Of a stretch of DNA of 31,676 nucleotides, positions 1,058 to 31,175 are shown piece after piece. A program made the translations under genes and the position numbers. The notes under the pieces are model-generated. The model was not told the DNA's origin and made no database searches. It saw only the letters and a program-made list of their open reading frames with translations. Each line of letters opens with the position of its first letter. Positions within the stretch are counted from its first letter, which is position 1. The stretch comes from a virus. The DNA is taken from positions 1 to 31,676 of IMG/VR virus record IMGVR_UViG_3300042691_005016. One strand, written 5' to 3'.

Positions 1058-2632
1058 ATGATTGTAAAAGAGTTAAAATTTAAGGGTGAAGCAAGGGATA
1101 AGTTAATCTCAGGTATAGAGAAGATGGCTAGTGCTGTGAAATGCACTTTAGGGGCTAGAGGGAAAACGGTCTTGATAGAGTCGGAGAATATTATTGGTGG
1201 GATAACAGTGACTAAGGATGGTGTAACTGTTGCGAGGTCTATCACGTTGGAAGATCCAATAGAGAATGCTGCGGTGGTTTTACTTAGGCAAGCTGCGGAG
1301 AACACGGCAAAGAATGCTGGAGATGGTACATCAACATCTGTTGTGTTGACAGAGGCATTAGTGAAGAGTGCTACTGAGCTGATGACATCGGAGCATAATT
1401 CATCTGAGGTGGTTCGTTGTTTGCAGAATTACAAGGATCAGGTGGTAAATTTTTTGGATAAGAAATCTATCCGTGTTAGTAAGTCTAAGCTTCATGACAT
1501 TGCTACGATTAGTTCAAATGGCGACAAGGAGATAGGGAGATTAATTTCAAAGACCTATTCTGAGGTTGGTTCGAATGGTGTTGTTTTGGTTGAGAACAGT
1601 ACGAGTAACGATACGTATTCGGACATTATTGACGGTATGCGTATTCAGAGGGGATGGACGAGCAAGTATTTTGTAACTGACGAGAAGCGGAGCGAGTGTG
1701 TTTTGAATGATGCTTATGTTTTGGTTACAGACCAGGAGATAACGAACTTAATGAGTTTGGAGCATATCTTTGCTGAGTGCATTAAGAAAAACAAGCCGTT
1801 GTTGATCATTGGTGAGTTGAGCAGTAATGCTTTGGCTACATTGAACATGAATGTACTTAGGAAAACTATCAAGGCGTGCAACATTTTACCTCCACACTTT
1901 GGGTATAAGCGTAAGGACTTATTGCAGGACTTGAGTGTTGCTTTGGGTGCTAAATACTTTAGTGATGGTACGGGTGATGATATGCAGTTGATACGGTTCG
2001 AGGATTTGGGTAGGGTAAAGAAAGCTGTGGTTGGACAGGAGACGACATCCTTGGTAAACTATGATTCTGAGGAGTTAAATATATTATTGGTTGAATTGAA
2101 ATCAAGGTTAGATTCTGTAACAAAGAAGACGGAGATAGAGTTTTTGAAGGAGCGTATAGCTAACATCACTGGTTCTATAGGGATAATAAACGTTGGTGCT
2201 GATTCGGACATTGAGTTAAAGGAGAAGAGGGACAGGATAGATGACGCTGTGTGTGCTGTACAGGCGGCAATTGAGCAGGGTGTATTACCAGGCGGTGGGG
2301 TAGCGTTGCTTCGTGCTATTGGTGATTTGAATGTTATACCTACAAAAAATGGCGAGGTGGCATTTAAGATTATGATAAACGCATTGGAGTCACCGATTAG
2401 GCAAATAATTTTAAATGCTGGGTTGGATTCTGATGGGATAGTTAATACATTGGTTACTGACAACACTAATTTCAATATGGGGTTTGATGTTAAGATGGAG
2501 CGTTATTGTGATATGTTGGAGTCTGGCATTATTGATCCATCGAAAGTAACCAAGCAGGCAATTATAAATTCAGTTAGTGTCGCTACAACGATAATGAGTA
2601 CGGACGCTACGATAACAAATATAAGACAATGA
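1058..2632 (+). CDS. groEL: Phage-encoded GroEL-type chaperonin (Hsp60)
   Basis: 524 residues, close to the usual ~545, colinear with group I chaperonins. The nucleotide site is preserved: TLGARG (30-35, where bacterial GroEL has TLGPKG), TKDGVTVAR (52-60), GDGTST (88-93), and D396 in RIDDA matching the ATP-hydrolysing aspartate D398 of E. coli GroEL. The glycine-rich PGGGVAL (411-417) follows. The apical domain keeps RGWTSKYF (198-205), KPLLII (246-251) and FGYKRKDLLQD (281-291). The C-terminus ends in NIRQ and lacks the flexible GGM-rich tail. It should form a folding chamber in the host cytoplasm with the GroES encoded just downstream (ATGA overlap). G-ending codons (TTG, AAG, GAG, AGG) are commoner here than in the late genes, which hints at a separate origin. 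Likely clients are phage structural proteins; this is inference. Confidence 0.97.
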   Translation: MIVKELKFKGEARDKLISGIEKMASAVKCTLGARGKTVLIESENIIGGITVTKDGVTVARSITLEDPIENAAVVLLRQAAENTAKNAGDGTSTSVVLTEALVKSATELMTSEHNSSEVVRCLQNYKDQVVNFLDKKSIRVSKSKLHDIATISSNGDKEIGRLISKTYSEVGSNGVVLVENSTSNDTYSDIIDGMRIQRGWTSKYFVTDEKRSECVLNDAYVLVTDQEITNLMSLEHIFAECIKKNKPLLIIGELSSNALATLNMNVLRKTIKACNILPPHFGYKRKDLLQDLSVALGAKYFSDGTGDDMQLIRFEDLGRVKKAVVGQETTSLVNYDSEELNILLVELKSRLDSVTKKTEIEFLKERIANITGSIGIINVGADSDIELKEKRDRIDDAVCAVQAAIEQGVLPGGGVALLRAIGDLNVIPTKNGEVAFKIMINALESPIRQIILNAGLDSDGIVNTLVTDNTNFNMGFDVKMERYCDMLESGIIDPSKVTKQAIINSVSVATTIMSTDATITNIRQ

Positions 2633-2889
2633 GGGCAGTAAATGATTTTTTGATAATTGAGCCAATAGTTGAGGAGTTAAAGAGTGCTTCTGGATTGGTT
2701 TACGATAGTAAGACTAAAGATGAGTTGAGATATATGAAGGGCAGGGTTGTTTCTGTATCGAATCAGATAGACATGGGTCTTAATATTGACGATGTGATAC
2801 TATACGACAAGGTTCGTGCTTATGAGGCACGAATAGACGGTACAACCCATACAATTATCCGTAAAATAGACGTTGTGTTAGTGTTTTAG
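2629..2889 (+). CDS. groES: GroES-type co-chaperonin
   Basis: 86 residues. The start ATG overlaps the groEL stop in ATGA, so translation is probably coupled. The order of elements fits Cpn10: a first strand (NDFLIIEPI), a mobile loop with SASGLVY (about residues 19-25, where GroES has SAGGIVL), then KGRVVSVS, a GxxIDDVILYD strand and a C-terminal IIRKIDVVLVF that matches the GroES end. It is somewhat shorter than bacterial GroES (about 97). It would cap the chaperonin encoded upstream. The loop hydrophobic triplet is SGLV instead of GGIV, which may mark a match to its own phage GroEL. Confidence 0.9.
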   Translation: MRAVNDFLIIEPIVEELKSASGLVYDSKTKDELRYMKGRVVSVSNQIDMGLNIDDVILYDKVRAYEARIDGTTHTIIRKIDVVLVF

Positions 2890-4115: not shown

Positions 4116-5042
4116 ATGCCAACTTACAAAGTATATAAGAGGGGGAATTATTTGGAGGTTATAGACACCGACAATAATGACTTATGGAACGTAAGGGTTG
4201 ATCATGCGTTTATTGAGCGTAAGAAGGATGACTTGGTGAAGTATGATTTTTTTGATTATTCATATTCAAGAGACGAGAAGTTTTTAGGTGACATTCAGTT
4301 AAGCTGGATGGTTGATGAGAATGATGCAGCTTGGGAGTTAGTTGACTTTGAAGAGTTTAGAACTTGTCAAATAGGCTATGTCCCGATTGACTATTCATGT
4401 GGAAGTGCTGCTGGTGGAGGCGGAGGTGACGATGGATTCGTTGTATTGAGTGGCAGTGGTAATTTTACTGTGCCAGCAGGGGTCTTTAATATTGAGGTAG
4501 AGATGTGGGGTGGTGGTGGTTCACCACAAAAATTTACACCTGTAAGCCCAGGTAGTTCAAAAGCTATATGTGGTGGTGGTGCAGGTAGCTATATAAGATT
4601 CAAAAAGATTGTCACTCCAGGTGATGTATTAGCTTATGTCGTTGGTGGTGCAACGTTAAATTTAGGTAACAACGGTAACAATACCACATTTGCTAGTAGA
4701 ACTGCAAGCGGTGGTTTAGCGGCTACAATAGTAGAAGGCACGCCAAATGTTATTACTGCAGGAAAAAAAGGTATATCTACAATAGTTTCTGGAGACGAAT
4801 TGATTGAGTCTTGTGATGCTGAAGTTATAGTTTGTGGTTCAAGTCTAGCTGTAGCTTTAGGGTCGGATTCACCTAAGGGCGGGATGAGTGCTAAATTTAG
4901 TGCTGGAACGGCAGATTTTACAACTGGTACACCCACAGCTTCATTGGTTGGTGCAGGCGGATCAATTAAATCAACAGCACTAGGTAGTCAATCATTTTTA
5001 CCAGGCGCAGCAGGTCGTATAGTAATAAAATATAATTTCTAA
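4116..5042 (+). CDS. Putative receptor-binding protein: shared N-terminal domain plus glycine-rich domain
   Basis: 308 residues. Residues 1-95 are the shared domain (YKVYKRGNYLEV, YDFFD, DEN, FEEFRT, GY). A Gly-rich linker (AAGGGGGDDG, about 99-108) leads to a domain typical of phage adhesins and surface proteins: GSGNFTVPAGV, a WGGGGS motif, CGGGAGSYIRFK, then Gly/Ala/Ser repeats and a final AAGRIVIKYNF. Such glycine-rich domains (polyglycine-II folds in some adhesins) bind host surface receptors at fibre tips. The first domain probably anchors the protein to the virion or to the partner proteins next to it. The gene overlaps the next one by one base (TAATG). Confidence 0.7.
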   Translation: MPTYKVYKRGNYLEVIDTDNNDLWNVRVDHAFIERKKDDLVKYDFFDYSYSRDEKFLGDIQLSWMVDENDAAWELVDFEEFRTCQIGYVPIDYSCGSAAGGGGGDDGFVVLSGSGNFTVPAGVFNIEVEMWGGGGSPQKFTPVSPGSSKAICGGGAGSYIRFKKIVTPGDVLAYVVGGATLNLGNNGNNTTFASRTASGGLAATIVEGTPNVITAGKKGISTIVSGDELIESCDAEVIVCGSSLAVALGSDSPKGGMSAKFSAGTADFTTGTPTASLVGAGGSIKSTALGSQSFLPGAAGRIVIKYNF

Positions 5043-5344: not shown

Positions 5345-7021
5345 ATGACATATAAAGTTTACAGAAAAGGAAATTTTATCATAATTGAATCATCAAATGG
5401 GATAGATATTTTTAATGTCCCTGTTCAAAACATGGTAATAAATAGAGCTAATAATATTTATCCAGTTTATGATTTTTTCGATGATGGTAATTCAATATTA
5501 TCAGGAATATCTATTTCATATTTAAACGATGAGAATGGAATTAATTATTCTATAGATGAGTTTGAGAATTTCAGAACTACAGAATGTGGGTATGAGCCAT
5601 TAGACTTAAACGGAGGAAACGATCCTAATGCACCTGCTACTATTGATTTTGAAGCAAAAACATATTACGCTAAATTAGCTACAGCTGCACCTCTATTAAC
5701 GTGTGCTTACAATAATGGGGCTGGTACTTTAACTGGTAGTTCAAATGGTATTTTATCTCAGAATAACCAAACAGGTAAAATTGATAATGTTACTCCAGTT
5801 TTAAACGATAAGATTTTAGTAAAGAATCAAACTCCAGCTACTCAGAATGGTGTATATGTAGTTACACAGTTAGGTAATGGTTCAAATCCTTTTATCTTAA
5901 CTAGAGTATCTGATTATAATGAATCTAGTGAAATATATCCAAGCGTTGTGTTTATATCAGAAGGTTCTTTAAATAACTCTAAATACTTTACACAGGACAC
6001 AGAGAATCCGACTATTGGTACAGATCCAATAGTCTATAAAGTTTCTTCAGTTCCTTTTCCTGCATCTGTAATAGTTTTTGTTGATACAACTACATCTGCT
6101 GCATTGCCTGCTTGTACATACGCAAATGGAACAGTTTATTCTACTGCACCTGGTGTTGGAGCAACTTTAAAAGCAAATGCAAACGGTGTTTTGGGAACTA
6201 TTAACGGGGTGTCAATAGCATCAGGGAATAGAATTATAGTTAAGAATCAAGCGAATCAAGCACACAATGGAGTTTATACTGTTACAGATCCTGGTGTTGC
6301 AGGTGGTTCTGGAAGACCATGGATACTAACAAGAACAGTGGCTGACTCAAATTCACTTTATAGAAGTCGTGAATTTGCAGTAACTAATCCATCATCAACA
6401 TTATTTGGTTCACGTTGGACAATTATTTCGCCTTTGACAATGACAAATGCTAATTGGGGAACTACAAATATTGTTTTTAGTGATAAGGTTAAAATAATTT
6501 CAGATGCTAACGGAAGTGGAGATATACCTTTTCAAATTACTCAAGCAAATAGTACTGATAACCTTATGAAAGTATTAGGAGAGGGAACAGTTGAATTTAA
6601 TAGTATTGTAAACGTTATTTCAAGAACTTCAGCAAATGACAATTATTTAAACTTAAGAGCAAATGGAAGTTCTGGCGTAAACTATTTAAACTTTTACAAA
6701 AATAATAATACATTACAAGGAGGAGTAAGTGTTAATGATGTTTGTATAAATGCTTCTTATAATAATGGGATAAATTTATCAGTATTTAACACAGGTGTTA
6801 TAGTAGGAGGAAATGGAAGCATAGCACCAGCAACGAGCACAGCCTTAGATATTAATTCAACAACAGGAGCTTTATTATTACCAAGGTTAACAGCTACCGA
6901 AGCTTCTGCTTTAACTCCAACAAATGGACATTTAATTTATGTAACAAGTACAAACGGAACTTTTACAAGCGTTGGTTTTTGGGGTTATGATGGATCATGG
7001 AAAAAAATAACATTAGCATAA
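5345..7021 (+). CDS. Putative tail fibre: shared domain, two internal repeats, fibre-type C-terminus
   Basis: 558 residues. Residues 1-90 are the shared domain (YKVYRKGNFIII, YDFFDDGNSILS, DENGINY, FENFRT, GYEPL). Two related repeats follow, about 98-235 and 239-370; each has a TCAYNNG or ACTYANG stretch, an (I/R)xIVKNQ or ILVKNQ motif, NGVYVVT or NGVYTVT, and FILTR or WILTR. The remainder is Asn/Ser/Gly-rich and ends with ALDINSTTGALLLPRLT and GFWGYDGSWKKI, a C-terminal pattern seen in fibre-like proteins of Bacteroidetes phages. Role: binding to the cell surface or bridging between tail and tip proteins. Start chosen for the A-rich leader and similarity of the N-terminus to the neighbours. 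Confidence 0.75.
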   Translation: MTYKVYRKGNFIIIESSNGIDIFNVPVQNMVINRANNIYPVYDFFDDGNSILSGISISYLNDENGINYSIDEFENFRTTECGYEPLDLNGGNDPNAPATIDFEAKTYYAKLATAAPLLTCAYNNGAGTLTGSSNGILSQNNQTGKIDNVTPVLNDKILVKNQTPATQNGVYVVTQLGNGSNPFILTRVSDYNESSEIYPSVVFISEGSLNNSKYFTQDTENPTIGTDPIVYKVSSVPFPASVIVFVDTTTSAALPACTYANGTVYSTAPGVGATLKANANGVLGTINGVSIASGNRIIVKNQANQAHNGVYTVTDPGVAGGSGRPWILTRTVADSNSLYRSREFAVTNPSSTLFGSRWTIISPLTMTNANWGTTNIVFSDKVKIISDANGSGDIPFQITQANSTDNLMKVLGEGTVEFNSIVNVISRTSANDNYLNLRANGSSGVNYLNFYKNNNTLQGGVSVNDVCINASYNNGINLSVFNTGVIVGGNGSIAPATSTALDINSTTGALLLPRLTATEASALTPTNGHLIYVTSTNGTFTSVGFWGYDGSWKKITLA

Positions 7022-7057
7022 AATATTAAAAATTATAAACCATAAAACAAAAGTAAA

Positions 7058-7183
7058 ATGAAAATGGGTATGAAAGAGGGAAACAGCAAAATGACTAAAG
7101 GAGGTAAAGTAGCTGCAAAGACATCAAAAAAATCTATGGCAAAAAAAGCTATGGGTAGTAAAATGGGTAAAAAATCCTATTAA
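7058..7183 (+). CDS. 41-residue Met/Lys-rich basic peptide
   Basis: A short ORF with an A-rich leader (ACAAAAGTAAA before ATG). Of its 41 residues seven are Met and about thirteen Lys, in repeats such as KMGMK, KKSMAKKAMGSKMGKK. There is no acidic region apart from one Glu. It opens the run of small basic genes and is followed 14 bp later by the next. Peptides of this kind are known near virion genes of large phages, but without a known role. Coding potential is supported by position and composition only. Confidence 0.5.
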   Translation: MKMGMKEGNSKMTKGGKVAAKTSKKSMAKKAMGSKMGKKSY

Positions 7184-7197
7184 AAATTTTTGTACAA

Positions 7198-7380
7198 ATG
7201 GCTAAAAGTAAAGTTAATCAAGCTGGTAATTATACCAAACCGAGCATGAGAAAATCTTTATTTAATAAAATAAAAGCAAGTTCTAAGGGAGGTGATCCTG
7301 GGGAATGGTCAGCAAGAAAGGCTCAGCTTTTAGCCAAAGAGTACAAAGCTAAAGGCGGAGGATATAAAACTAAAAAGTAA
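7198..7380 (+). CDS. 60-residue basic protein of a conserved phage/virus type
   Basis: Starts MAKSKVNQAGNYTKPSMRK and continues FNKIKASSKGGDPGEWSARKAQLLAKEYKAKGGGY. The pattern NxAGNYTKPxxRKxxFxxIKxxxKGG...WSARKAQxLAKxYKxxGGGY is one I recognise from many phages, where it is annotated as hypothetical. Strongly basic; the aromatic and helix positions suggest a small folded unit, not mere low-complexity sequence. It sits in a run of five small basic genes on one strand and may be a virion or DNA-packaging accessory protein. Confidence 0.7.
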   Translation: MAKSKVNQAGNYTKPSMRKSLFNKIKASSKGGDPGEWSARKAQLLAKEYKAKGGGYKTKK

Positions 7381-7381
7381 T

Positions 7382-7558
7382 ATGAAAGGCGTACCACATT
7401 ATAAGAAAGATGGAACTCTTTACACGGGAAAGGGTACTCACAAAGATGATAAAGGAAATCTTATGACTGGTAAAACTCATACTAAATCAAGTGTGAATCT
7501 CTTTCATTTAAAAGACCTTAGTAAAAATATTCAAGCTAAAATTAAAACTAAAAAATAA
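7382..7558 (+). CDS. 58-residue basic protein (KGVPHYKKDG type)
   Basis: ATG is 1 bp after the preceding stop, and the stop overlaps the next ATG (TAATG). The sequence begins MKGVPHYKKDGTLYTG, continues GTHKDDKGNLMTGKTHT and ends NLFHLKDLSKNIQAKIKTKK. This hairpin-like pattern of HYKKDG, GxTHK, G(K)THT followed by LFHxxDL recurs in small proteins of phages and some large DNA viruses; no function is known to me. Tight packing with its neighbours shows it is expressed as part of the group. Confidence 0.7.
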   Translation: MKGVPHYKKDGTLYTGKGTHKDDKGNLMTGKTHTKSSVNLFHLKDLSKNIQAKIKTKK

Positions 7559-7824
7559 TGTCTAAAGACCCACAACAAAGTCTTAGAGATTGGACAGCAC
7601 AAAAATGGATGACTTCTGGAACTGCATCTAATAAAAAAAAGGGAAGTAGTAAAGAGGTAAAATCCGAAGGTAAAAAAAGATATTTACCAGAAAAAGCTTG
7701 GGATTCTTTATCGGATAGTGAAAAATCTGCCACTAATAAAGCTAAAGCGTCTGGAAATAAAAAAGGGAAACAGCTTGTTAAACAACCTAAAAGCATAGCT
7801 AAAAAGGTAGCAAAATATAGATAA
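7558..7824 (+). CDS. 88-residue basic protein, DUF5872-like
   Basis: The arrangement is a Trp motif (LRDWTAQKWMTSG), a Lys-rich link, then RYLPEKAWDSLSDSEKSATNKAKA and a basic tail GNKKGKQLVKQP. I link it to the DUF5872 type found in phages and viruses, from memory and not from a search. It overlaps its neighbours by one base at both ends (TAATG). Probably a small virion or nucleic-acid-associated protein. Confidence 0.7.
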   Translation: MSKDPQQSLRDWTAQKWMTSGTASNKKKGSSKEVKSEGKKRYLPEKAWDSLSDSEKSATNKAKASGNKKGKQLVKQPKSIAKKVAKYR

Positions 7825-8120
7825 TGGCAAAATTCAAGACACCTGCTTGGCAACGATCTGAAGGTAAAAATAAGAGCGGTGGGTTAAATGCTAAGGGTAG
7901 AGCATCTGCAAAAGCAGAGGGTTCGAACTTAAAAGCACCAGTTAAGTCTGGCACTAATCCACGTAGAGTTAGTTTTGCTGCAAGATTCGGGGGGATGGAA
8001 GGTGCTGAAACAAAACCGAATGGTGAGCCAACAAGATTAAAATTAGCATTAAAAGCTTGGGGGTTCTCAAGTAAAGCAGAGGCAAGGTCTTTTGCTAGTA
8101 AACATAAAAAAAATAAATAA
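7824..8120 (+). CDS. 98-residue basic protein, DUF6321-like
   Basis: Contains WQRSEGKNKSGGLNAKGRAS, a middle part with APVKSG.NPRRVSFAARFGGMEG (where relatives have SFCARMxGM), and a C-terminal LKLALKAWGFSSKAEARSFASKHK helix. The GGLNxKGR...PVxxxNPRRxSFxARxxGM pattern is a known small domain of phage proteins of unknown function (DUF6321-type, from memory). It is the last of the five small basic genes. Overlap with the preceding gene by one base. Confidence 0.7.
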   Translation: MAKFKTPAWQRSEGKNKSGGLNAKGRASAKAEGSNLKAPVKSGTNPRRVSFAARFGGMEGAETKPNGEPTRLKLALKAWGFSSKAEARSFASKHKKNK

Positions 8121-13756: not shown

Positions 13757-14052
13757 GTGACTATAAATTAAAGCGTAAAGAAATACTTGATGCAGCTCAA
13801 AAGGGAATTGATGAGCTTATAAAAGTATTAAGAGATCCAATTATAGGCAATAGTGATGATTCAGATATATCTGCCGATAAAATGAAGAACGCAGCAGCAG
13901 CTAAAAAATTAGCGTTCAATGATGCTTTAGAGATGTTAAAAAGGATAGAGGACGAGGAGAATTTACTATATGAAAATTCTATTGATAAAAAAGACGTAAA
14001 AGAAATACCTTCTAGTTTCGCTGAGAGAAGAGCGGTAAAATCAAATAAATGA
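13753..14052 (+). CDS. terS: Putative small terminase subunit
   Basis: 99 residues, helical and highly charged. It starts with YKLKRKEILDAAQKGIDELIKVL and contains a middle helix ADKMKNAAAAKKLAFNDALEMLKRIEDEE, the kind of Ala-rich helix found in small terminase proteins of crAss-like and related phages. It lies directly before the large terminase with an ATGA overlap, the classic position. There is no recognisable HTH. It is expected to recognise the DNA for packaging and to stimulate the ATPase. The assignment rests mainly on position. Confidence 0.6.
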   Translation: MSDYKLKRKEILDAAQKGIDELIKVLRDPIIGNSDDSDISADKMKNAAAAKKLAFNDALEMLKRIEDEENLLYENSIDKKDVKEIPSSFAERRAVKSNK

Positions 14053-16274
14053 GTCAGTTATATAGAATAATAGAACCAATATCTGTAAAAGAAATTGATA
14101 GTCGTAACAAAAAGAAAAAATGGGAGTATGGCTACAATGAAGAGTTTGATATAGTTGTTATATCGAAAGATGGTACTATTGGGCAAATATACGAAATAAA
14201 CTCATTAAAAATAGCACTACCTTCTACACCGAATAGGGTAGATAATAAAAATAATAGATGGACACCAACACCATTACCTGATGAATTACAAAAGCTAAAA
14301 TCAGTATTTGAATGGAATAAAAGAGATAAATCTTTTAAATCTCAGTATGTAGACTTTATTGATAACGAATTTGATAAAAGGGAGTATGGGTATTGGTTTA
14401 TGAATAGAGGTGTAAAGACTTACATGACTGGCTCACAATACGTCTACTTGAATTACTCTAAGATAGATGTTGGGCTACCTGATTTTCGTGAATCAAACAG
14501 AATATTATTTATTTTTTGGGAAGCTTGCAAAGCTGATAAGCGTTCATTTGGAATGTGCTACTTAAAAAATAGACGTTCAGGATTTTCATTTATGAGTTCA
14601 TCTGAATGTGTAAACATAAGTACACTTGCTAAGGACGCAAGAATTGGGATACTATCTAAGACGGGTAGTGACGCTAAGATTATGTTTACCAATAAGGTTG
14701 TGCCAATATTAAAGAATTATCCGTTCTTTTTTAAACCTGTTCAGGATGGTAGTGACAATCCAAAAACCGAATTAGCTTTCCGTGTCCCTGCGTCAAGGAT
14801 AACTAAGCGTACCATGATGCAAGATCACGAAGAAGAGGTTGAGGGGCTTGACACGTCAATAGATTGGAAGAATACAGATGACAACTCATACGATGGTGAG
14901 AAGCTAAAGTTTTTAACGCACGATGAATCTGGGAAATGGATAAAGCCTAATAACATCTTAAATAACTGGCGTGTAACAAAGACTTGTTTACGTTTAGGTA
15001 GTCGCATTGTAGGAAAGTGTATGATGGGTTCAACATCAAATGCTAAATCAAAAGGTGGACATGAATTTAAGTCATTATATGAAGATTCAAATCCAAGGTA
15101 TAGAAGTGCCAACGGTCAAACAAAATCAGGTTTATATGCTTTGTTTATTCCAATGGAGCATAACTTAGAGGGTTTTATTGATGAATATGGCTATGCTATA
15201 GTTGAAGATCCAAAAGAGCCAATTAAAAATTCTGAAGGTGATTTTGTTGATATAGGTGCAATTACATATTGGGAGCGTGAGGCAGACGTATTAAAAAGAG
15301 ATCAAGATGCGCTAAATGAATTTTACAGACAGTTCCCAAGAACTGAACCTCATGCCTTCCGTGATGAATCTAAAGAGTCTATATTTAACTTAACAAAGTT
15401 ATATTCTCAAATAGATTTTAATGATGGTCAAATACACGCAAGGAATTTGACTAAAGGGAATTTTAGTTGGAAAAACGGATTAAAAGATACTCAAGTAGTA
15501 TTCACTCCAGACAATAAGGGTAGATTTTTAATATCATGGATACCTCCATTAAGACTACAAAATAGAGTAGCAAATCGTAATGGACAATTTATACCATTAA
15601 ATGAAAGTTTAGGGGCGTTTGGATGTGACCCTTATGATATATCTGGAACAGTAAGTGGGGGCGGATCTAATGGATCGTTACATGGATTAACAAGATTCTC
15701 AATGGATGATGACGTACCTCCTAATGTTTTCTTTTTAGAGTATATAGCTAGACCTCAAACAGCGGAAATATTCTTTGAGGACGTTCTTATGGCTTGTTTC
15801 TTTTATGGTATGCCAATGTTGTGTGAGAATAATAAACCAAGGCTATTATATCATTTTAAGAATAGAGGATATAGAAAATTCTCTATGAATAGACCTGATA
15901 AGAAGATTGAGCAGTTATCAAAAACAGAAAAAGAGCTAGGTGGAATACCGTCATCATCTGAAGATATAAAACAAGCCCATGCCGCTTCTATTGAAACTTA
16001 TATCGAAACACACGTTGGATATGATACAGAAGGCACATATAGAGATCCTGAAGAGATAGGTAATATGCCATTCAATAGAACGTTATTAGATTGGGTTAAT
16101 TTCAATATAACAAAGCGTGAGAAATATGATGCTTCGATTAGTTCTGGATATGCAATTATGGCAAATAATAAACATCAATTTCAAGTTGAACAAAAAAAGT
16201 CAAAAATAAGTGTTAACTTTGCAAGATACAATAACAAAGGAGGATTAAGTAGTAAATTAGCAGAGTATGAATAA
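14049..16274 (+). CDS. terL: Terminase large subunit (DNA packaging ATPase/nuclease)
   Basis: 741 residues, in the range of crAss-like terminases. N-terminal region contains YGYWFMNRGVKTYMTGSQYVYLNY and LPDFRESNRILFIFWE. The nucleotide-binding region is FGMCYLKNRRSGFSFMSSSE (167-186), a deviant Walker A with no classical GKT. The ATPase coupling motif is seen as MMGSTSNAKSKGG (about 325-337). The C-terminal nuclease domain has FGCDPYD with D527 as the first metal-binding Asp and a final LLDWVNFNI segment. The protein docks on the portal, encoded next with an 8-bp overlap, and pumps and cuts DNA. Confidence 0.9.
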   Translation: MSQLYRIIEPISVKEIDSRNKKKKWEYGYNEEFDIVVISKDGTIGQIYEINSLKIALPSTPNRVDNKNNRWTPTPLPDELQKLKSVFEWNKRDKSFKSQYVDFIDNEFDKREYGYWFMNRGVKTYMTGSQYVYLNYSKIDVGLPDFRESNRILFIFWEACKADKRSFGMCYLKNRRSGFSFMSSSECVNISTLAKDARIGILSKTGSDAKIMFTNKVVPILKNYPFFFKPVQDGSDNPKTELAFRVPASRITKRTMMQDHEEEVEGLDTSIDWKNTDDNSYDGEKLKFLTHDESGKWIKPNNILNNWRVTKTCLRLGSRIVGKCMMGSTSNAKSKGGHEFKSLYEDSNPRYRSANGQTKSGLYALFIPMEHNLEGFIDEYGYAIVEDPKEPIKNSEGDFVDIGAITYWEREADVLKRDQDALNEFYRQFPRTEPHAFRDESKESIFNLTKLYSQIDFNDGQIHARNLTKGNFSWKNGLKDTQVVFTPDNKGRFLISWIPPLRLQNRVANRNGQFIPLNESLGAFGCDPYDISGTVSGGGSNGSLHGLTRFSMDDDVPPNVFFLEYIARPQTAEIFFEDVLMACFFYGMPMLCENNKPRLLYHFKNRGYRKFSMNRPDKKIEQLSKTEKELGGIPSSSEDIKQAHAASIETYIETHVGYDTEGTYRDPEEIGNMPFNRTLLDWVNFNITKREKYDASISSGYAIMANNKHQFQVEQKKSKISVNFARYNNKGGLSSKLAEYE

Positions 16275-18696
16275 AAGATTAGTCGAGTCGGCTATTTTTC
16301 CATCTCATTCGATAAGTGACTTAGATAAAGCTACTGAAGAATATGGTCTTAGTGTAGGTAAAGCTATTCAATATGAATGGTTCAAACGTGCAGGCGCAAC
16401 TTGCAAGTACTATGATCAATGGAGAGATTACCATTTATTAAGATTATACGCTAGGGGTGAACAGCCAGTAGATAAGTATAAATCAGAATTTGCAATAGAA
16501 GGTGATTTATCTTATACTAATTTAGATTGGACACCAATACCTATTATATCAAAATTTGTCGACATTGTAGGAAATGGAATATCTAATCGTGATTACGAAA
16601 TTAAAGCTAGTGCTGAGGATGCGTTATCAGCAGAAAAAAAGAATAAGTTCCAAGAATTAGTAGAGTCTGATATGTTAACAAAAGACATATTAGAAATTAC
16701 AAAACAAGAGTGGGGTGTAGATGCTTATAACATTCCTCCAGAGGAGTTACCACAAAATGATCAAGAACTAGAATTATATATGCAAATCAAATATAAGCCG
16801 TCAATAGAGATAGCTTGTGAGATTTCAATATCTAATATATTAAACATGAATGATTTCGTATCTATCAAAGAAAGATGCGACATTGACGTTATTACACTTG
16901 GTGTATCTTGGGTAAAACATTCATTTAATAAAGATATAGGATTAAAAATAGAGTATGTTGATCCAGCTTATATAGTTCACTCATATACAGAATCACCTAC
17001 TTTTGATGACTGTTTTTATTTTGGAGAGGTAAAACAAGTTCACTATTCTGAGATTAAGAAAATAAATCCATCAATTACAAATGATGAGTTAGAGGAATTA
17101 AAAGCAGAGGGTATATTATGGGTTCAAGAATATGGTGGATACTATAGATACCATGATGAACTTTATAAAGCGGAGACAGTTCCGATGTTGTACTTTAATT
17201 ATAAAACAACAATAAATACTGTCTATAAGGAAAAAACATTAAATAACGGTGGCAAACGTGTTATAAAACGTGACGATCAATTCAATCCATCTGAAGATGA
17301 GATGATGGATAATAGATTCTCTAAGCTATCAAAAACAATTGACGTATGGTATGACGGTGTAATGGTTTTAGGTTCATGTAAGTTATTGAAGTGGGATCTT
17401 CAAAAAAACATGGTTAGACCTAAAGCTGCGACACATAAAGTTTACCCTAACTATATAGGCATTGCTCCAAGATCATATAAAGGGTCTTACGATTCGTTAG
17501 TAAGACGTATGATACCATTTGCAGACCAAATACAATTTATTCACTTAAAACTTCAGCATATATTATCAAGATTAGTTCCTGATGGTATTTATATTGATGC
17601 TGACGGTATTAATGAGGTTGACTTAGGCACGGGTGCTGCATATAATCCAGAGGACGCATTAAAATTATATTTCCAAACGGGTAGTATCATTGGTAGGTCA
17701 ATGACTCAAGATGGAGAATTTAATCATGGTAAAATTCCTATCCAGGAGATTGGTAAAGGTGATAGTTTAAATAAAATATCATCATTAATTAATCAATATA
17801 ATCACTACCTAAATATGATACGTGATGTAACAGGTATTAATGAGGCTGTTGATGGTTCGAGACCTGACTCATATTCATTAGTAGGGTTACAGAAATTAGC
17901 GGCAGCAAATTCAAATACAGCAACACGTCATATATTAAAAGGTGGGTTTACGCTTACAAAGAGATTAGCTGAGGCTTGTATTGTAAGAACGGCTGATATT
18001 TTAGAGTATGCCGACTTTAAGGATGAGTTTGCTATGCAAATAGGTAAATATAATGTTTCATTATTAAATGATATTAAAACGTTATATCTGTATTCTTTTG
18101 GTATATATTTACAAGTAGCACCTGACGAAGAAGAGAGAGCTAATATGGAGAATAATATCCAGATTGCTCTTCAGCAAGGTATGATAGACTTAGATGACGC
18201 TATTGATATTAGACAAATTAAAAACATCAAACTTGCAAACGAACTTCTTAAAGTTAAGAAGAAAAAACGTAACGAAGCTAGGATGGCTGAGGAGCAAAAG
18301 AAAATGGAGATGCAGACTGTTATGAATAGTCAGTCGGCTCAAGTTGCGTCTGAAGCTAAAATGCAAGCGTTACAATTAGAATCACAAGCTAAGCTACAAG
18401 CTATTAATGCAGAAGCTCAAGCTAAGATACAAGTTATGCAAGCTGAGGTAGAGGCTAAGAAACAATTAATGGATGTAGAGTTCCAATATAATATGAAGCT
18501 AAAAGGTATGGAATCACAAGCTTTGTCTCAAAAAGAAAAAGAGCGTGAGGACAGAAAAGATGAGCGAGTAAAGAAGCAAGGGACAGTTCAATCTAAGTTA
18601 ATAGATCAGCGTAAAAAAGAGTCTGAACCTATAGATTTCGAGAGTAATGAGGATACACTTGATGGATTTGATTTATCAGAATTTGAACCGAGATAA
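16267..18696 (+). CDS. Portal protein
   Basis: 809 residues, matching the length of crAss-like portals. Residues 1-650 form the portal body: an N-terminal part with KYYDQWRDYHLLRLYARGEQ, a central segment with PNYIGIAPRSYKGSYDSLVRRMIPFADQIQ (about 397-425) and RDVTGINEAVDGSRPDSYSLVGLQKLAAANSN (518-549), the typical stem and wing pattern. From about 655 a Gln/Ala/Lys-rich coiled coil (MQALQLESQAKLQAINAEAQAKIQ) runs to about 770 and ends in an acidic tail. Twelve copies are expected to form the ring through which DNA is packed and released. The start overlaps the large terminase gene. A -7 element and new gene follow. Confidence 0.88.
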   Translation: MNKRLVESAIFPSHSISDLDKATEEYGLSVGKAIQYEWFKRAGATCKYYDQWRDYHLLRLYARGEQPVDKYKSEFAIEGDLSYTNLDWTPIPIISKFVDIVGNGISNRDYEIKASAEDALSAEKKNKFQELVESDMLTKDILEITKQEWGVDAYNIPPEELPQNDQELELYMQIKYKPSIEIACEISISNILNMNDFVSIKERCDIDVITLGVSWVKHSFNKDIGLKIEYVDPAYIVHSYTESPTFDDCFYFGEVKQVHYSEIKKINPSITNDELEELKAEGILWVQEYGGYYRYHDELYKAETVPMLYFNYKTTINTVYKEKTLNNGGKRVIKRDDQFNPSEDEMMDNRFSKLSKTIDVWYDGVMVLGSCKLLKWDLQKNMVRPKAATHKVYPNYIGIAPRSYKGSYDSLVRRMIPFADQIQFIHLKLQHILSRLVPDGIYIDADGINEVDLGTGAAYNPEDALKLYFQTGSIIGRSMTQDGEFNHGKIPIQEIGKGDSLNKISSLINQYNHYLNMIRDVTGINEAVDGSRPDSYSLVGLQKLAAANSNTATRHILKGGFTLTKRLAEACIVRTADILEYADFKDEFAMQIGKYNVSLLNDIKTLYLYSFGIYLQVAPDEEERANMENNIQIALQQGMIDLDDAIDIRQIKNIKLANELLKVKKKKRNEARMAEEQKKMEMQTVMNSQSAQVASEAKMQALQLESQAKLQAINAEAQAKIQVMQAEVEAKKQLMDVEFQYNMKLKGMESQALSQKEKEREDRKDERVKKQGTVQSKLIDQRKKESEPIDFESNEDTLDGFDLSEFEPR

Positions 18697-29663: not shown

Positions 29664-31175
29664 ATGGAGTATTTTAAATATAAAGCGCAGACAGACTTTT
29701 TAGATACTGGGAAATTAACAGGGGATTTAGTGTCCGCTGTTAGTGGTATTTCGGAGCGTAAGAAAGCAGCGTCTGCAGAAGTGCAAAAACAATTTGATGA
29801 TGTACAATCAGAATTAAATGCTTGGGAAGGTACTAAAACACAAAGCTTAGATGAGTTAGCTATTAAAGGCGTTAGTGCGTATCGTGTAGCTCTTAAAGAT
29901 GCGTCAGATAGATACAATAGAGGAGAAATAGACGCTACTCAATATAAATTATTTACAACAAATGCAAAAAACTCTTTTTCTTCTTGGGCGAAAGGAGCAC
30001 AAGGATTTGATGCACAACTACAAACTCTTATACAAAGACAAAGTAATGGTGAAGGAGGTAGAGATGAGGAGGCTAATATTAGGTATTTTGGTGAATATGG
30101 AAATATAGGGGCTCAAGAATTTAAAGTTCAAAATGATGGAACTTCATTGTTAGTCGAGAAAGATAAAGATGGTAGAATAATTAAATTCAATGACACTAAA
30201 TTTATCTTTAATCCTGGAAATAGTTTAGGTGTAAAAGTTAAGTTAGACGAAGATGTAAACAAAGTAACAAAAACATGGGGGAATTGGAAAGTAGGCACTA
30301 TTCAGCCTAATGGCACAAGTCTAACTATAGAGGATATACGTAAAAACCTAGAATACAAAAAAGCTAATATTGCTTTACAAAATCAATTTACAGCCACACC
30401 TCAACAGACACAATCTGTACTTGCTGATTTTGGTGGTTATCAAATAGCAAATAACGACGCTGAGGCTGGTAGATTCCTTGATGAGATGGTGATGACTGAA
30501 TTAGAGTTGAATCCTTCAATGACTGAGGAAGAAATACGTAAATTCAAAGAAGAAAATAAGCATAAGATAATTACAAGAAAACGTGACAAAACAGGACAGT
30601 TTATTCCTGATATTACTCCTAAGCAATTAGAAGAAGCTAAGAAAATGATCAATACGAAGATTGAGATGAACTTAGGTCATATCGAAGCTGAAAATAAACA
30701 GACAAGTGAAGAAAGAGAAGCGGCTAAGAAAGCTGGTAAATTCCCTCCAAAAGGTGGTAGTAAGTCTACTAAAACAGAAGATATAGCATTAAATGCTTAT
30801 ATAGCGTCTGTTGATGCAGTTACAAAAGGAGATTTTGAATCTTTCGATCAAGAAAACTACTCATACAAATCACTTACAGATGCAAATGGAAAAAAATATG
30901 TAGAGATTCAGCCATTAATAAAACAAACAATAAATGGTACAATAGAGATTGTACCAAAAGGAAACCCAATAAAAGTTTACAGCCCAGATGCAATGACATC
31001 TTATTTAAAGGATATTAAAGGAGCTAATTTAAGAATGTATCATAGTGGTAAAGATGATTATCTTAAACAATACGGAGAGTATTATTACGAAGAGCCTAAA
31101 AAGAAAACATCAGGGAAACCTAAAACAACAGGAGGGACAGGAAAACCAACAAACCCATTTGAGACAAAAAGCTAA
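29664..31175 (+). CDS. Putative internal virion or ejection protein, Lys-rich
   Basis: 503 residues, mostly helical and charged (Lys 13 percent or so by eye). An N-terminal region with KLTGDLVSAVSGISERKKAASAEVQKQFDDVQSELNAWEG is likely to form a long helix pair; the middle is mixed with KVQNDGTSLLVEKDKDGRIIKFNDT and a helical segment EEEIRKFKEENKHKIITRKRDK; the C-terminus is unstructured and basic (KKKTSGKPKTTGGTGKPTN). It follows the ejection-type protein by 3 bp and precedes a large repeat-start protein by 2 bp. A role in DNA ejection or the inner core is inferred from context; no enzyme motif. Confidence 0.62.
   Translation: MEYFKYKAQTDFLDTGKLTGDLVSAVSGISERKKAASAEVQKQFDDVQSELNAWEGTKTQSLDELAIKGVSAYRVALKDASDRYNRGEIDATQYKLFTTNAKNSFSSWAKGAQGFDAQLQTLIQRQSNGEGGRDEEANIRYFGEYGNIGAQEFKVQNDGTSLLVEKDKDGRIIKFNDTKFIFNPGNSLGVKVKLDEDVNKVTKTWGNWKVGTIQPNGTSLTIEDIRKNLEYKKANIALQNQFTATPQQTQSVLADFGGYQIANNDAEAGRFLDEMVMTELELNPSMTEEEIRKFKEENKHKIITRKRDKTGQFIPDITPKQLEEAKKMINTKIEMNLGHIEAENKQTSEEREAAKKAGKFPPKGGSKSTKTEDIALNAYIASVDAVTKGDFESFDQENYSYKSLTDANGKKYVEIQPLIKQTINGTIEIVPKGNPIKVYSPDAMTSYLKDIKGANLRMYHSGKDDYLKQYGEYYYEEPKKKTSGKPKTTGGTGKPTNPFETKS

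Follow-up and report, generated by a model that had tools for sequence, protein, structure and literature searches.

What is known of phage chaperonins comes from T4 gp31, which is a lid only, and from the chaperonins of jumbo phages, which are barrels only. Phages T4 and RB49 encode GroES orthologues only (PMC9598537), namely gp31 and CocO, and rely on the GroEL of their hosts. According to published reports (PMC9598537, PMC7185714), the chaperonins of the jumbo phages EL, OBP and AR9 need no co-chaperonin, and a role as a holdase, preventing aggregation, has been proposed for that of EL. Plastids pair Cpn10 with the tandem co-chaperonin Cpn20, with mixed rings as the likely native form (PMC4242682, PMC5780408); one of these two reviews terms the Cpn20 type chloroplast-specific. 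In the Pervagoviridae, cpn10 is a core gene (PMC8776804), 36 of 78 phi38:1-like ocean genomes have GroEL (PMC5332604), and infected Cellulophaga cells were shown to contain the phi38:1 GroEL protein (PMC13288928). Our literature search found neither biochemistry for chaperonins of the phage lineage described here nor a paper in which a phage tandem Cpn10 is described as such; in databases, some members of the tandem family already carry the label “co-chaperonin GroES.”

We analyzed the whole of a 31,676-base IMG/VR virus record, IMGVR_UViG_3300042691_005016 (the window), which is a fragment. The terminase, portal and virion proteins (Table 1), together with an M15 endolysin gene, mark the contig as that of a tailed phage. 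Its terminase large subunit (TerL) shares 64% identity with that of Manatee Spring podovirus ctfjg026 (MW202828.1) and ∼42% with those of Flavobacterium elemoviruses, and also matches Cellulophaga, Maribacter and Tenacibaculum phages, which makes a member of the Bacteroidota the probable host. The virion structural protein listed in Table 1 is a candidate major capsid protein and a possible chaperonin client.

Table 1. Genes of the window that bear on the proposed folding machine.
Feature	Position	Strand	Evidence and remarks
groEL, group I chaperonin-like, 524 aa, without GGM tail	1058..2632	+	Pfam, PHROG and NCBIfam matches
groES, single-domain co-chaperonin, 86 aa	2629..2889	+	Pfam Cpn10; lineage profile match
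Tandem double-Cpn10, Cpn20-like co-chaperonin, 186 aa	13196..13756	+	phrog_13932; profiles; fold match
Terminase large subunit	14049..16274	+	phrog_6681, 564 bits; marks the late/packaging module beside the putative tandem lid gene
Portal protein	16267..18696	+	phrog_6547, 461 bits
Virion structural protein, 464 aa	19875..21269	+	phrog_13704 “virion structural protein,” 353 bits

The groEL product matches Pfam Cpn60_TCP1 (PF00118) over residues 24–521 of 524 (197 bits, cut-off 34.3), PHROG 5725 “chaperonin groEL” (phrog_5725, 415 bits) and NCBIfam PRK12849 (471 bits, over the cut-off of 352). Its score against the NCBI equivalog TIGR02348 (459 bits) lies under the curated cut-off of 582, and by these profiles it is a GroEL homologue outside that cellular equivalog. 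Equatorial, intermediate and apical parts are all present, and the closest solved structure is 9rwr_A, an ancestral Bacteroidetes-group chaperonin (E = 2.7e-116). In the numbering of Salmonella GroEL, the protein retains T30, L31, G32, K51, D52, G53, D87, G88, T89, T91, S151, D398, G414–416, I493 and D495, and with them the nucleotide site (D52, D87, D398, GGG 414–416 and D495 included); the motifs TKDGV, GDGTST and GGG are all there, and TLGARG is read as well. The substitutions are P33A, K34R, T90S, N479D, A480V, A481K and D83K, of which T90S, P33A and D83K fall at otherwise constant sites. The C-terminus reads TDATITNIRQ and thus lacks the GGM tail of a classical cellular GroEL. Near the gene, promoter-like matches were no more frequent than expected by chance, and a search for terminator-like sites gave none.

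The groES product matches Pfam Cpn10 (PF00166) at 37.7 bits, over the cut-off of 21.1, and a GroES profile built for the lineage matches the bacterial GroES profile with E = 5.5e-19. The two reading frames are intact and share an ATGA stop/start overlap (...CAATGAGG...), which suggests translational coupling. The first-pass annotation had described a complete GroEL-GroES pair with a coupled GroES, and our reading bears this out, as it does the details given there: TLGARG, an SGLV mobile loop, the missing GGM tail and the nucleotide-site motifs. The mobile loop, KSASGLVYD, contains the glycine and hydrophobic tripeptide expected of a GroEL-binding loop. Across 78 phage-lineage sequences the loop is kept as T-x-S-G-L-L-L, where bacteria have G-I-I-I; S-G-L is the usual form in the lineage, and the loop here runs S-A-S-G-L-V-Y. 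The conservation of this stretch indicates selection for GroEL binding. By a measure that gives 17 residues for the roof-hairpin segment of E. coli GroES, the segment spans 8 residues in 72 of the 78 phage proteins, 9 in the phage studied here and 12 in two Bacteroidota GroES proteins inspected; a more open GroES roof would be a gp31-like feature.

An alignment query on viral contigs returned hundreds of GroEL relatives, the best 80 of which were taken for neighborhood counts; these are close relatives, and the counts describe the phage lineage rather than all phages. With groES scored when it followed groEL within 1 kb and in the same orientation, 74 of the 80 carried the two genes in this order. 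In one, groES lay upstream, and in the remaining five no groES was seen beside groEL, one of the five ending at a contig edge. The same query on bacterial loci placed groES upstream of groEL in 77/80. The GGM motif was found within the last 25 residues in 0/80 of the best viral relatives versus 65/80 bacterial loci. Of 23 long related records, 22 encode GroEL. A single-protein scan of viral contigs with the phage GroEL found no relative, and tblastn with the phage GroES gave just three phage records (E≤0.1); taken alone, this last result creates a false impression of rarity, which the profile and neighborhood search corrected. In one viral relative (L057), groEL is followed by a 154-aa GroES-type ORF with a possible extra domain, and an immutovirus relative (L114) shows the bacterial order groES-groEL and a different tail, representing a separate acquisition.

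Thus, the pair is real yet ordinary within its phage lineage. Both genes had already been annotated in the records of elemoviruses, Callevirus, immutovirus and MW202828, and the earlier suggestion that such a pair is rare in phages does not hold. The same annotation had proposed a machine that works differently or is tuned to phage clients. The oddities named there are weak evidence: absence of the GGM tail and the SGLV loop are lineage-wide or ordinary and cannot serve as signs of a special machine, and A33, the change in TLGARG, recurs in 13 of 48 phage-clade GroELs. The part of this proposal that stands is tuning, which is fitted by the clade-wide changes of the apical groove described below.

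In MW202828.1, groEL is likewise followed by groES, a tandem Cpn10 gene lies just upstream of the terminase gene, and portal and structural genes come in the same order; it is nevertheless a different species (GroEL 45.5% and tandem protein 44% identical), and its tandem gene is annotated merely as hypothetical. In the Flavobacterium elemoviruses (NC_055853 and relatives), gp43 (groEL) and gp44 (groES) adjoin, and gp30, labeled “co-chaperonin GroES,” is the tandem protein, encoded upstream of the terminase gp29; their GroEL is only 37% identical (TerL 42%), and the domain-1 loop of their tandem protein is shorter (NGLILN). Cellulophaga Callevirus (phi38:1, phi40:1 and Calle; Pervagoviridae) has GroEL, Cpn10 and tandem Cpn10 genes, the last preceding a large gene that comes before the portal gene, but its order is Cpn10, small gene, GroEL, so that Cpn10 and GroEL are two genes apart. 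The immutovirus differs in having groES-groEL in the bacterial order. Cellulophaga phi13:2 (Pachyviridae) has a tandem Cpn10 gene upstream of terminase (record positions 40708–41310) and a single-domain GroES-like gene (30087–30314, E = 2.3e-13), whereas no GroEL was found at Pfam level in its complete 72-kb genome, and both of its tandem loops look canonical (KTESGLEL and SLIYIPED).

The tandem gene of the window was absent from the first-pass annotation. A match to phrog_13932, “co-chaperonin GroES” (83.8 bits), spans the full length of its product, while Pfam covers part of the second half only, at 15.9 bits, below the cut-off, and a profile searched against the sequences of solved structures reached E = 0.17. 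Both halves were identified only by profile-profile and fold comparison. Domain 1 (about residues 1–105, loop NNTKNIEGVEFI) matches the bacterial GroES profile with E = 2.4e-4, its loop aligning to the mobile loop, and domain 2 (about residues 106–186, with a short loop) does so with E = 1.6e-12. An AlphaFold2 model (pLDDT 72, pTM 0.69) is of low confidence mainly at residues 19–39 and 123–129, the sites of the two loops. Its best fold match is the algal Cpn20 chain 7ekq_R (Foldseek E = 3.3e-5; VIA-align Z = 10.2, rmsd 4.6 over 157 residues), the large rmsd over both halves leaving the domain-domain angle unsure. The next matches are single Cpn10s on either half: domain 1 matches 1wnr_A (Z = 7.8, rmsd 2.0), and the C-terminal domain matches T4 gp31 (1g31, Z = 6.5). 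With moderate confidence, we therefore regard the predicted architecture as a double Cpn10, with two Cpn10 domains head to tail. A plausible GroEL-binding motif occurs in domain 1 only, the domain-2 loop being short and devoid of a G-hydrophobic motif, and for this reason we describe the protein as built like Cpn20 rather than as a member of that type. The parallel with chloroplasts, where one single-domain and one tandem co-chaperonin serve one chaperonin, is likewise one of arrangement, the tandem protein being only 15–16% identical to chloroplast Cpn20.

Among the 23 long related records, 22 carry the tandem gene, and in every annotated relative read it lies directly upstream of terminase, or of the large gene that replaces terminase. 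This position could reflect a packaging or head-assembly protein that was recruited with its Cpn10 fold and is no lid at all, as could the domain-2 loop of this lineage, which is without a GroEL-binding motif; moreover, the Cpn20 chain of 7EKQ belongs, by the entry title, to a ClpP complex, so such lids can dock elsewhere. The conservation pattern argues otherwise, in that conservation within the family peaks in the domain-1 loop itself (RYNNTKNIE, invariant in 15/15), and canonical-looking loops are found in both domains of the phi13:2 protein, in domain 2 of Callevirus and in domain 1 of the elemoviruses. We judge a non-lid function unlikely, if still one to be reckoned with. In Callevirus the domain-2 loop is canonical (DNGLRVI) and that of domain 1 is lost, the opposite of the lineage studied here; it seems that either domain has lost its loop, depending on the lineage.

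We placed the phage GroEL in a maximum-likelihood tree of 99 GroELs, obtained by a quick search and containing some long branches. As the first-pass annotation had called for, this phylogeny included the Bacteroidota, and the protein falls in a viral clade rather than among host sequences: the smallest strongly supported group comprises six viral contigs (SH-aLRT 97), and the Manatee Spring phage GroEL joins in a larger supported group with 40 rows (99). Forcing the protein into the Bacteroidota clade cost 210 log-likelihood units and was rejected (p-AU = 4.65e-5). Its identity is at most 39% to bacterial GroEL versus 54% to viral relatives. The GroELs of DAC22 and of a 735-kb phage sit within the Bacteroidota clade and that of the immutovirus elsewhere, so that GroEL has probably entered phages on several occasions. 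Callevirus GroEL forms a separate long branch, and we make no claim on the placement of Callevirus and phi14:2.

The phage clade differs from bacteria at two surfaces of GroEL: the apical groove, to which both clients and GroES bind, and the contact between the rings. In E. coli GroEL, L234, L237 and V264 contact the GroES loop (PMC3514286). At apical groove position 234, a hydrophobic residue is found in 38/38 bacteria versus 2/48 phage-clade GroELs, with Glu in 36 of the 48, including the protein studied here; at groove position 263, the counts are 38/38 versus 5/48. Bacterially constant positions are replaced in most of the clade at 45 of 84 apical sites versus 21 of 85 equatorial ones. Position 464 is hydrophobic in 38/38 bacteria versus 8/47 phage-clade proteins (V464 being lost), and position 109 is Ala or Ser in 38/38 versus 7/47; these two positions belong to the ring-ring contact as it is known from GroEL and its SR1 mutant. 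From these patterns we infer that the pairing of barrel and lid is private to the phage, and the double ring is possibly weaker.

We propose, with a probability of about 0.68, that the window encodes a phage-owned folding machine with two lids, most likely for late proteins. The phage GroEL would hydrolyze ATP and bind unfolded phage proteins, its clients most likely being abundant late structural proteins. The single-domain GroES, made together with GroEL, would cap it, and the tandem protein, expressed along with the packaging and head genes, would serve as a second lid. Barrel and lids would have co-evolved for long enough that their contact surfaces drifted from the host versions, and the phage GroEL would be expected to cooperate badly, if at all, with host GroES. 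We favor this reading because GroEL is full length with its nucleotide-site residues intact; because groEL and groES adjoin in most of the relatives counted, and both the tandem protein and GroEL persist through the long records; because the GroES loop is conserved, the GroEL contact sites have changed as a clade and a host-clade placement is rejected; and because the related phi38:1 GroEL is made during infection. Against it stand T90S, P33A and D83K in GroEL, the co-chaperonin-free chaperonins of EL, OBP and AR9, and phi13:2, whose lids occur without GroEL and hence need not serve a phage GroEL. The jumbo-phage proteins are GroEL-like as well, and that of AR9 also lacks the GGM tail, but the AR9 chaperonin is just 20% identical to the one studied here, and the adjacent groES speaks against a comparable independence from a lid.

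A bolder form of the two-lid machine, and a possibility that we lean against, is that a plastid-like solution evolved independently, in which the phage GroEL would use mixed or alternative lids of Cpn10 and Cpn20 type on a barrel with weakened ring-ring contact. Three tandem proteins and one single-domain GroES would, for example, supply seven domains; alternatively, a two-layer dome of tandem proteins might enlarge the cage for head proteins. A tandem Cpn10 outside plastids would, if true, be an independent case of even-numbered lid domains on a seven-fold ring, and such proteins are found both in phages that encode a GroEL and in phages that do not. Beyond the known pair, this analysis adds the second kind of lid and the contact-surface changes shared across the clade, and the combination of Cpn10 and Cpn20-like lids is its interesting part. 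Since the lineage has two kinds of lid besides a barrel, and since relatives of it (elemoviruses and phi38:1) are in culture, co-evolution of barrel, lids and clients becomes testable.

Alternatively, the phage lids may mainly cap the host GroEL, as gp31 does, with the phage GroEL as a secondary anti-aggregation holdase. Precedents exist in T4 and RB49 and in phi13:2, where both lid types occur without GroEL and so do not depend on a phage barrel; by analogy with gp31, the phi13:2 lids could cap host GroEL only. The phage loop S-G-L-L-L also resembles the host form S/G-G-I-I-I. The phage studied here departs from the gp31 type in encoding a GroEL of its own, most of the lineage has groEL and groES either ATGA-coupled or close together, and the apical contact changes across the clade are those expected for a private partner, all of which renders this alternative distinctly unlikely. 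That this GroEL is decaying or moonlighting and does not fold proteins, as T90S, P33A, D83K and the long end branch in the tree (0.98) might suggest, is very improbable given an intact frame, retention of the catalytic aspartates D52, D87 and D398, and maintenance of the groEL-groES pair across the lineage. The idea that a host groESL operon was captured recently, for which the best solved match to an ancestral Bacteroidetes-group chaperonin could be cited, has next to no chance, being ruled out at the sampling used by a gene order opposite to that of bacteria, the tree and AU test, and the low identity to bacterial GroEL.

Other parts of the window carry probable tail-fiber genes. Positions 4116–5042 encode a glycine-rich probable tail-fiber protein with a weak “tail fiber assembly” PHROG match, and positions 5345–7021 a second one of 558 aa with repeated virion and tail-fiber PHROG matches. 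The stretch that follows (7022–7557), between two plus-strand genes, holds just a 60-aa ORF and a 15-base repeat (7125–7154) and shows a strong A-over-T skew (0.335 in 7001–8000).
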